The position numbers and the translations under genes were made by a program. Below, in pieces: positions 35,049 through 38,346 of a stretch of DNA of 63,896 nt (the first letter of the stretch is position 1; the number at the start of each line of letters is the position of its first letter). The notes beneath the pieces were generated by a model. The model worked only from the letters and a program-made list of their open reading frames with translations. It ran no database searches and had not been told where the DNA came from. Source of the DNA: Pirellulales bacterium. Lineage in GTDB: Bacteria; Planctomycetota; Planctomycetia; Pirellulales; Thermoguttaceae. Location: contig JAFGDS010000099.1 in the NCBI GenBank assembly GCA_016931995.1, positions 1 through 63,896 of the forward strand, written 5' to 3'.

Positions 35049-35090
35049 AACGAGGCAAGTCCGATCCCAACCGGTCGGGCTTGCCTCGTT
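35049..35090 (+). terminator. Rho-independent-type terminator after the PEP-CTERM gene
   Basis: An 11-bp perfect stem (AACGAGGCAAG / CTTGCCTCGTT) encloses a 20-base loop with an inner CCGA/TCGG pairing. It is followed by CTATTTGATC, a partial T-tract. Confidence 0.8.
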
Positions 35091-35130
35091 CTATTTGATC
35101 GCCGCGCGAGATATAAAACCGCAGATGATT

Positions 35131-35160
35131 CTCGCGCGGAGGCGCGGAGACGCAGAGACT
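35131..35160. repeat. Inverted-repeat arm CGCGGAGGCGCGGAGACGCA (left copy)
   Basis: The complement of this stretch recurs at 35936-35964 with about 28 of 29 bases matching, so the two copies frame the gene at 35345-35905. A third partial copy follows at 35985-36007. Confidence 0.8.
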
Positions 35161-35344
35161 TGATTCCGAACCAGGACCGCCCGATAATCCCGTAGGTCAG
35201 CTATGCCTGACAACACCAACGCAAGATGCCCTCAACTGGATTCGTCCGGCACAGGGCGGTTCGCCAGACGTTTGCTCCAAGTAGGCAATCGACAATGTCG
35301 CAAGACCTTTTCAAGTCCGCGAGTCAGATGGCCAGGCGATTCCC

Positions 35345-35905
35345 ATGAAGACGACACATTGGGATTACTATCGGGTACTCGTGGATGACATTGACCGCAT
35401 CTCTCGATACGTTGAAATTGTCCCTGACAATTTCGCGGTCTACTCAATCGAATTGGTGCGCATGATATTGGCCGCGGGATCCGAGGTGGATGTCGTTGCC
35501 AAGCGATTGTGCCAGGCATCTATGCCGCCGGTCTCCGCAAACAACATCAATGAGTACCGCTCTGTGTTGTGCGAGAAGTATCCAGGACTTCCGGGGATTA
35601 AGGCCACCATGCCACGTCATGGCTACGAGTTCGTGCCCTGGGAGGAATGGGCAAACGGCGAGAACCCCGCGTGGTGGCGCGCCTACAATTCGGTCAAACA
35701 CCAGCGCGACCAATGTTTTGCACAGGCCAATCTCAAGAACACCATTGACACCATCGCTGGTTTGTGCGTCCTTGTCACGTATCTCTACAAGGATGTCTTC
35801 GAGACGACGGTGATGCCGACTCCAATGCTTTTCGTTTCAGCGGAATACAAGGCGAACCCTCAAATCCTCTTTGGAAACCGATACAAATTGCCGGATTTCG
35901 TGTGA
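35345..35905 (+). CDS. Uncharacterised protein, possibly HEPN-like, framed by inverted repeats
   Basis: A 186-residue soluble protein, MKTTHWDYYRVLVDDIDRIS at the start, without signal peptide or membrane segments. The C-terminal half is helical: WWRAYNSVKHQRDQCFAQAN, then 'LKNTIDTIAGLCVLVTYLYK'. The arrangement of an aromatic, Asn, Lys-His and Arg on one helix followed by a long helix recalls HEPN-type or abortive-infection-like helical bundles, but this is only a resemblance. Its GC content looks lower than that of its neighbours. Inverted copies of a 29-bp repeat lie on both sides, which suggests it arrived as a cassette. No function can be assigned. Confidence 0.7.
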   Translation: MKTTHWDYYRVLVDDIDRISRYVEIVPDNFAVYSIELVRMILAAGSEVDVVAKRLCQASMPPVSANNINEYRSVLCEKYPGLPGIKATMPRHGYEFVPWEEWANGENPAWWRAYNSVKHQRDQCFAQANLKNTIDTIAGLCVLVTYLYKDVFETTVMPTPMLFVSAEYKANPQILFGNRYKLPDFV

Positions 35906-35935
35906 CCTCTCGCCGGGGCGCGAATTTCACGAGTC

Positions 35936-36007
35936 TGTCTCTGCGTCTCCGCGCCTCCGCGCGATATCGAAAACGTTGGACGATGCTCGCGCGGAGACGC
36001 CGAGATT
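35936..36007. repeat. Inverted-repeat arm TCTCTGCGTCTCCGCGCCTC (right copies)
   Basis: The first copy (35936-35964) is the reverse complement of 35131-35160. A second, shorter copy in the opposite sense (GCTCGCGCGGAGACGC) lies at 35985-36007. Confidence 0.8.
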
Positions 36008-37285: not shown

Positions 37286-37894
37286 TCATGCGCGGCGTCG
37301 GCGCAGCAGCCCTTTCATGCGCAAGAAGAAGAGTTCTCGGGCGAGTTGCCGCACAGGAACGTGCGTGCCGCCGCGAGCGTTGAATCGTTGGGCCAAATCC
37401 TCCATTGCCGCCGGATCCATCACGAGCTTGTCGACGGGCGTCCCCAACTCAGCATAGAGACGAGCAAGAAGCGCGCGATCTTCCTCGGAAAGACTCTTCT
37501 CGCTTTGCTTCACAGAATGCGCAAGATCGTCAATCCGTGAGACCGGATAGACTGAGGAATCCGAAAGATTCTGCAAATAGCCAGGCAGGCGGGAGCCAGC
37601 GGGGCCCGTGTTGACTACATAAATGGGTTTGTTCCACGCGAGGGCCGCACCCAACTCAACGCCCATGTTTGCGGACGTGACGTGGCGGGGATCGATCACC
37701 GCAACGACGACTTGGCTTTCGGCCATCGCACGCCGCAATACATCGCCGATAGATTCGCCGGGAGTCAACGCGGTTGCGGCGTTGAACACGCTAAGCCCTG
37801 CATTCCGCAGCGCGCGCTCCACCATCGCGCCCGGCTCTGCCTCCGCGAAGGAACACGACAGGAATACGTCATACATCGCCGTTTGAACCGTCAT
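37286..37894 (-). CDS. TIR-domain protein (second gene of a TIR pair)
   Basis: A 202-residue protein. The N-terminal 120 residues are TIR-like: strand A MYDVFLSCSFAEAE, 'MVERALRNAGLSVFNAATAL' as helix A and strand B, 'MAESQVVVAVIDPRHVTSAN', then MGVELGAALAWNKPIYVVNT. The Glu of GVELGAAL sits where the NADase glutamate lies in TIR enzymes. The C-terminal 80 residues, ending in a basic RRRRA, are helical and unrecognised. Its start overlaps the previous stop by 4 nt (ATGA), so the two are translationally coupled. TIR proteins in bacteria often cleave NAD or make signalling nucleotides in defence. A nucleoside deoxyribosyltransferase-like fold is an alternative. Confidence 0.78.
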   Translation of the reverse strand: MTVQTAMYDVFLSCSFAEAEPGAMVERALRNAGLSVFNAATALTPGESIGDVLRRAMAESQVVVAVIDPRHVTSANMGVELGAALAWNKPIYVVNTGPAGSRLPGYLQNLSDSSVYPVSRIDDLAHSVKQSEKSLSEEDRALLARLYAELGTPVDKLVMDPAAMEDLAQRFNARGGTHVPVRQLARELFFLRMKGLLRRRRA

Positions 37895-38337
37895 GGCACG
37901 TGCCTCTCGACGCGTCGTCTGAGCTCTCTCAGGTAGTCATCAAGATCATTTATCGGAATGGCTTTCTTCGAGGCGATCATATCCGGAATGGTATCGACGC
38001 CGACATGGCACAACACGGCTGTGATTCGCGAGCGTTGGCGTCTGCCCCAGGCCGCTCCCACTTCGAGCAACACCCACGGACGGCCGATCGAATCCGGCGT
38101 CAACAACACAACCATCTCGTTTGACCGAATGATCTCCTGACGAATACGCGCGGGGATGTCGTCGCCGCCGTCGATGTCGCGATCGTCCCGAAACGTGGCA
38201 GCGCCGCTCTGCTCGATCTTCTCGCAGAGCGTCTTGGCCAGCCACTTGTCCGCCGTCGCGTGACTGACGAATACGCGATACCGGCCCGATTCAATCGGTG
38301 GTGTCGTTCCCCGATGCTGGCGTCGCGGCTTCCCCAT
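37891..38337 (-). CDS. TIR-domain protein (first gene of a TIR pair)
   Basis: A 148-residue protein that is almost all TIR domain. 'YRVFVSHATADKWLAKTLCE' is strand A and helix A, 'SGAATFRDDRDIDGGDDIPA' covers the BB loop, RSNEMVVLLTPDSIGRPWVL strand C, and LLEVGAAWGRRQRSRITAVL contains the expected catalytic Glu after a Trp. The start at 38337 lies inside the likely transcription start region; an earlier ATG at 38409 lies upstream of the promoter and is unlikely. The second TIR gene overlaps its stop. No effector, sensor domain or transmembrane helix is attached. It may act as an NADase alone or as an activating partner of the second protein. Confidence 0.85.
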   Translation of the reverse strand: MGKPRRQHRGTTPPIESGRYRVFVSHATADKWLAKTLCEKIEQSGAATFRDDRDIDGGDDIPARIRQEIIRSNEMVVLLTPDSIGRPWVLLEVGAAWGRRQRSRITAVLCHVGVDTIPDMIASKKAIPINDLDDYLRELRRRVERHVP

Positions 38338-38346
38338 AACCGAAGT

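Follow-up and report, generated by a model that had tools for sequence, protein, structure and literature searches.

Several described systems resemble parts of the arrangement reported here. In REPIN/RAYT systems, the gene of a DNA-cutting enzyme lies between inverted repeats, and hairpin doublets of the same repeats (PMC3116915) are dispersed through the genome. The CGTC-type REPs described in PMC3733652 have stems of 8–9 bp and loops of 4–5 nt. In the 23S rRNA of Coxiella, the IVS is a stem-forming element holding one small ORF of the S23 family, with heptamer repeats before it (PMC4990558). Lastly, MITEs are short inverted-repeat elements, and two MITE copies around a gene can form a composite.

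We analyzed a window of 63,896 nucleotides from a Pirellulales bacterium (contig JAFGDS010000099.1), in which a single gene is framed by two copies of a hairpin repeat, here called H. Like REPIN/RAYT systems, the source genome has hairpin doublets of an inverted repeat (18 H hairpins) and enzyme genes between repeats of the same type. The enzyme, however, belongs to the PD-(D/E)XK family (GxxExxY, PF13366) and is not a Y1 tyrosine transposase, and the arms are tandem arrays of 8–9-nt units. The likeness to the Coxiella IVS consists of one small ORF, a stem-forming element, and short repeats, and S23-family genes proved to be likewise framed; the protein differs and the unit mostly does. That IVS lies within rRNA and is excised by RNase III, whereas such excision is not known for GxxExxY. 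The likeness to MITEs lies in short elements with inverted repeats, including two derived from a larger one by internal deletion, and in the pair of hairpin copies around a gene. In contrast to MITE composites, no transposase is known for H-type elements, and both hairpins have the same orientation, the left one truncated.

The reading we favor, with somewhat better than even confidence, is that an HEPN-like gene, acquired horizontally and probably directed against phages, is framed by two same-orientation copies of a dispersed MITE-like hairpin whose arms are of the kind found at the ends of GxxExxY elements. These parts are known in kind (MITE/REPIN-like hairpins, a PD-(D/E)XK nuclease, and an HEPN-like gene). 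The family name GxxExxY appears in PMC8934634 and PMC12085832; we found no description of its pairing with cognate inverted arrays in the open-access literature searched, and one may exist outside it.

Layout of the framed locus and dispersal of its hairpin

The gene is enclosed by a perfect inverted repeat (35132–35159 against 35937–35964; 28 nt, 100% complementary, spacing 777 nt), slightly better than the roughly one mismatch claimed in an earlier note on this DNA. That note had also placed one gene between the arms, and the only long plausible ORF there is indeed 35345–35905 (+), of 186 aa, which the remaining listed ORFs overlap. At up to two mismatches the core of the arm has five matches in the window, all inside the frame, a number reached by 0 of 100 shuffles. 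Both arms are parts of longer hairpins, at 35102–35160 on the left and 35937–36005 on the right. In direct orientation the two hairpins show 78% agreement over 49 nt, which makes the layout hairpin–gene–hairpin, with the two in the same orientation; the left hairpin lacks most of its outer arm, and the right is complete. The framed unit starts directly after the terminator-like hairpin of an upstream PEP-CTERM gene. The features are as follows.

35049–35090 (+): intrinsic-terminator-like hairpin after the upstream PEP-CTERM gene, 18 pairs, loop of 6, from a consensus scan only
35102–35160 (+): left hairpin repeat (H), with a truncated outer arm at about 35102–35111, a loop, and a complete inner arm at 35132–35159
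35132–35159 (+): left inner arm, 28 nt, identical in inverted orientation to 35937–35964
35160–35188 (+): sigma-70-like promoter inside the frame, TTGATT-17-GATAAT, 9/12, a consensus match only
35191–35211 (+): small palindrome of GTAG type, a second dispersed repeat that lies beside several H hairpins
35345–35905 (+): gene for a 186-aa protein, probably of HEPN fold, PHROG 19461 family
35937–36005 (no strand assigned): right hairpin repeat (H), complete, with inner arm 35937–35964 (−), a 22-nt loop, and outer arm 35987–36005 (+)

Copies of the GTAG-type palindrome (CCGTAGGTCAGGC..GCCTGAC) accompany H hairpins or arms at five sites, never more than about 100 nt away (L070 4150, L075 5068, L084 3925, L086 4083, and window 35191). 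The window copy was found by edit-distance search; a mismatch-only pattern has no match in the window.

Both hairpins are intergenic and able to fold, and the right one has convergent genes on its two sides, which would suit immobile elements that serve chiefly as signals for transcription or RNA processing where genes end. Their folding, though, exceeds that of shuffled sequence only mildly (z −1.3 right, −2.1 left), the terminator scan lists none at either hairpin, and relatives of the arms are multi-copy elements with unrelated flanks. We consider a purely signaling role improbable. An Rfam search of 34.0–38.5 kb of the window gave no match up to E 1.

The repeat is dispersed through the source genome. 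In the 5.43-Mb sequence the arm core has 73 matches at up to one mismatch, against 11 for a reversed-pattern control, and we collected 48 arms, which were drawn from 35 stretches plus the window and form 35 sites. As the window arms belong to this dispersed family, they form part of a hairpin–gene–hairpin layout and not a private pair. Of the 35 sites, 21 are solitary. The view of the earlier note that the repeats are mobile in kind is borne out. The earlier note had set against itself the case of a repeat present in hundreds of copies unrelated to cargo, with the gene at the same place in all relatives. The copies do mostly lack cargo, but they number in the tens, and the gene is not conserved in place.

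Eighteen H hairpins extracted from the genome are tail to tail, with arms of about 27 nt and loops of 17–24 nt; compact head-to-head palindromes occur at three sites in two stretches. The sites are clustered, with eight gaps of at most 2 kb where a mean of 0.44 is expected, a count reached in 0 of 20,000 simulations on a site list compiled by hand. Close groups of H enclose two GxxExxY genes (PF13366), the window gene, a DUF1559 gene (PF07596), a lutB-like gene with LUD and LutB_C domains, and two ORFs without a Pfam match.

These doublets resemble REPINs (PMC3116915), and the genome has seven Y1_Tnp matches. Ordinary REP/REPIN sequences moved by RAYTs (Y1 tyrosine transposases) could then have framed the gene by the coincidence of two insertions, and the GTAG-type palindrome beside five H sites, the window included, would suit this explanation. 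The clustering of sites speaks against coincidence, however, and the flanks of the seven Y1_Tnp matches (up to 1.5 kb per side, some shorter) hold a single weak 15-nt arm match and no full arm. Furthermore, arms of about 27 nt and loops of about 20 nt do not fit the CGTC-REP shape of PMC3733652 (stem 8–9 bp, loop 4–5 nt, CGTC end), and arms of the same type flank GxxExxY genes. A RAYT origin therefore seems unlikely to us, and we retain the reading of a MITE-like hairpin with arms of the GxxExxY kind.

A second class of arm, CACCACGGAGRCACGGAG, is also present in the genome, often followed by a ACCACRGATGAACACGGAT-like array, so that two unit types stand side by side (L058, L059, L062, L066, L068, L071–L073, L076, L079, L081, and L088).

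GxxExxY nuclease genes and their inverted arrays

The source genome has seven PF13366 matches, counted as six genes, each with some short-period unit repeated in inverted orientation on its two sides. H-type arms, built from the 8–9-nt unit ending in AG, flank two of them, C46 and C28. They face inward at C46, as around the window gene, and outward at C28, where the nuclease gene is placed where the loop of an H hairpin would be; this suggests that H is a gene-less form of the C28-type layout. The window gene itself is not a GxxExxY gene, and its product has no match in Pfam (up to E 1), NCBIfam, or PADLOC.

Arms of this general kind accompany GxxExxY genes well beyond the source genome. PF13366 is found in 55 of 119 sampled genomes of the phylum, and 32 of 36 loci (35 genes, as L102 and L103 overlap; best-scoring matches, not a random draw) have a flank inverted repeat scoring at least 13. 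Among 155 displaced control places, the 99th percentile is 12.5 and the maximum 13, equal to the threshold, and 12 GYD loci reach at most 12. Control slices around the repeat sites of the source genome (n = 470) have a 99th percentile of 13 and a top score of 28, because those stretches contain frames. In GTDB contigs from many phyla, archaea included, inverted arrays surround 60 of 77 GxxExxY loci against 3 of 401 control places; these loci are the best 80 of at least 581, all found via G-x-G-L-type patterns, less three dropped for short flanks. The unit of the frames is 8–9 nt long. ParE toxin genes, which are also small and sporadic, were framed in 0 of 30 cases.

The GxxExxY protein has an intact D...ExK...Q catalytic set, with D69, E79, K81, and Q93 invariant in 23 sequences. 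Its model (pLDDT 91) has a PD-(D/E)XK fold and best matches SSO0001 (4ic1; Z 9.4, rmsd 4.6 over 108), which we take to be a Cas4-type protein. Further structure matches are mostly restriction-endonuclease-like, exonuclease, and resolvase chains, with human Rep15 among them (Z 6.9).

Nuclease subtype and unit type go together. Loci of the G-x-G-L subtype have a unit ending in AG in 80 cases, AT in 2, and an unclassified one in 1, and those of the G-x-G-F subtype have AT in 11, AG in 5, and unclassified units in 5; in 75 of the 80 framed G-x-G-L loci with the AG unit, the arms face inward. No frame was found at 31 of the 137 analyzed loci (24 G-x-G-L and 7 G-x-G-F). The comparison began with 176 loci, 60 of them hand-picked from listed matches, of which 36 were lost because the gene motif was not found and 3 were too short. 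The Fisher P value of 3e-9 overstates the evidence because the loci are related.

Repeat load also varies with the nuclease. CRCRGAGRCRCRGAG-type repeats, for which we found no explanation in the open-access literature searched, are present in 66 of the 119 sampled genomes. At least five AG-unit copies occur in 31 of 55 genomes with PF13366 and in 7 of 64 without it (P 9e-8), and the contrast is weaker for at least one copy (37 of 55 against 29 of 64; P 0.013); in this census the reversed-pattern control also matches three-unit arrays. Both the seven genomes with at least five repeats without PF13366 and the 18 of 55 with PF13366 and no AG-unit copy count against our favored explanation. We would expect these 18 to be the genomes that have the AT-unit subtype only.

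Several elements recur within a genome. Assembly G037 holds a longer copy, with a nuclease frame matched by PF13366, and two copies that share an internal deletion; each of the three lies on a contig of its own, and their flanks are unrelated. Alignment of the two short copies stops after 290 bases. Since two copies with the same deletion lie in unrelated flanks, framed GxxExxY units move. Near the gene start, 34 nt that are present in the deleted copies are missing from the longer one (L422), and the assembly, with 8% contamination, is split into 660 contigs. Short elements bounded by inverted arms, of insufficient length for the nuclease gene, also recur with unrelated flanks in G044 and G004; in G004 the shared part runs beyond the arms. 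The short elements of G044 (L428–L435), a genome with 712 array matches, lie between CACGGAG arrays, and most ends carry an extra outer hairpin of the CTTCGCCTTCGGCGAAG type.

A plausible mechanism would have the GxxExxY nuclease cut at or beside its cognate arrays, with copying repair or excision after cutting spreading both the nuclease gene and gene-less hairpins. Two such hairpins may then have landed on either side of the window gene, or brought it in as a composite unit. A nuclease link would give the CRCRGAGRCRCRGAG-type repeats an owner, a family with an intact catalytic set. REPIN-like systems would also gain an enzyme other than RAYT, and GxxExxY a predicted DNA target open to testing.

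The framing extends to S23 four-helix genes (PF05635), which in genomes of the phylum have inverted arrays of many different short units at 20 of 29 loci (L296–L325; 30 loci, one dropped). The units are about 7 nt by eye and mostly differ from that of the window, one locus (L312) having an AG-type unit. A broader possibility, which we raise with considerable doubt, is that GxxExxY nucleases and S23 four-helix proteins each drive an undescribed class of mobile element. Each class would have one gene between inverted short-unit arrays, unit and enzyme co-evolving, and gene-less, REPIN-like parasitic hairpins alongside, and the window unit would be a nuclease-class composite with anti-phage HEPN-like cargo.

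The framed gene, its relatives, and its predicted product

The gene has a G+C content of 0.524; slices of 561 nt across the window give 0.655 (sd 0.037), and none of the 634 is as low. The foreign look that the earlier note ascribed to the gene is borne out. Its relatives are carried by viruses and plasmids. We found them in 5 other genomes among 392 of the phylum, at 57 viral-contig loci, some near-identical, in 13 plasmid records, and in 3 phage records, two of them of the same phage. PHROG 19461 (function unknown), a family found in prophages and plasmids, is matched by 31 of 35 family members. On plasmids, neighbors of the gene include BrnT/BrnA, an AbiEii-type gene, and integrases. The homologue in Salmonella phage SEN8 (26% identity, E 9e-5) lies between cos and the portal gene (gpQ), the same place as the anti-phage gene hotspot of E. 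coli P2-like phages described in PMC9122126. The gene looks to have been imported from the accessory pool of viruses and plasmids. A single-protein scan of GTDB contigs with the window gene as query gave no relative, and the family profile has no match among PDB sequences.

The source genome has one copy of the gene. No homologue was found in the two same-family genomes searched, nor beside truA or the GYD gene in the stretches of relatives examined. Elsewhere, homologues were framed at 0 of 44 tested loci (62 available), some flanks reaching contig ends. Under other flank limits one homologue (L040) scores 12, without a repeat-like arm. Immediately upstream of the homologue in G388 lies an AT-richer array (CCACAGAGGACACAGAGA), while downstream the contig ends.

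We also considered that the framed unit, 28-bp inner arms plus gene, is a single-gene cassette whose transposition depends on a GxxExxY nuclease that works in trans on the inner arms. These arms match each other exactly and differ from every other collected arm, and only 11 of 1128 arm pairs, theirs among them, are identical over 27 nt, while the directly equivalent parts of the two hairpins agree only at 78%; their inverted identity is thus not simple shared descent of two hairpins. They face inward, as at 75 of the 80 framed G-x-G-L loci with the AG unit, and the unit is self-contained, with its own promoter-like site, a foreign composition, and arms of a mobile kind. On the other hand, the gene is present once, its homologues are unframed, and ordinary genes are enclosed too. 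Of its flanks only asd–truA is syntenic in relatives, and no target duplication or syntenic empty site was seen for the framed gene. We therefore hold the small mobile or cassette unit proposed in the earlier note to be doubtful, since the arms are not private, other groups enclose other genes, and 0 of 44 homologues are framed. The hairpin–gene–hairpin reading that we favor must also accommodate the unframed homologues and the enclosure of ordinary genes such as lutB.

The AlphaFold2 model of the framed protein (pLDDT 87.2) is confident except in the last 20 residues. Of the 19 best VIA-align rows (Z 9.2 to 6.2), nine are titled HEPN or HepT, two Csm6, and five uncharacterized, and the other three (1jog, 7bxo, and 5yep) are presumably HEPN-type structures. 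Csm6 matches with Z 9.2 and rmsd 3.0 over 121, and HepT chains with Z 7.8–8.3 and rmsd 3.1–4.3 over 120–134 residues. Row 20 is unrelated at Z 5.0. Helical bundles easily attain Z values such as these. Because Foldseek alone gave nothing significant despite these rows (best E 0.66), we grade the HEPN fold, which the earlier note had proposed from a helix motif, as probable.

Canonical HEPN RNases of the HepT, Csm6, and RnlA type have a conserved R-x4-6-H active-site motif. In this family M1, P98, W110, Y114, K118, and H119 are invariant in 35 sequences, and E47, N115, and R121 are nearly so, giving the conserved motif Y-x3-K-H-x-R (Y114-x4-H119-x-R121 with K118). The canonical motif is not conserved here: R112 would give R-x6-H, yet five homologues have K, K, D, D, and Q at this position. 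The motif of HepT from PDB titles is R102-x4-H107-x-Y109, and relative to it R and Y appear to be exchanged when the two are aligned by spacing rather than by superposed coordinates. A further difference from HepT/MntA, besides Y-x3-K-H-x-R in place of R-x4-6-H(-x-Y), is that no nucleotidyltransferase domain was found among the neighboring products searched. The framed gene represents an HEPN-like family that is unnamed and phage-borne, has a rearranged active-site motif, and probably serves against phages; its product could act as a toxin-like effector that stops the infected cell.

Two TIR-domain genes (PF13676) lie nearby, between asd and truA (window 37286–38340, −). Of the 14 relatives with a match to each of asd and truA, 11 have the two matches just 13–152 nt apart and no TIR match. 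The short gap suggests that the TIR pair was inserted and that relatives have the empty site, and the neighborhood that the earlier note had pointed to is a variable one.
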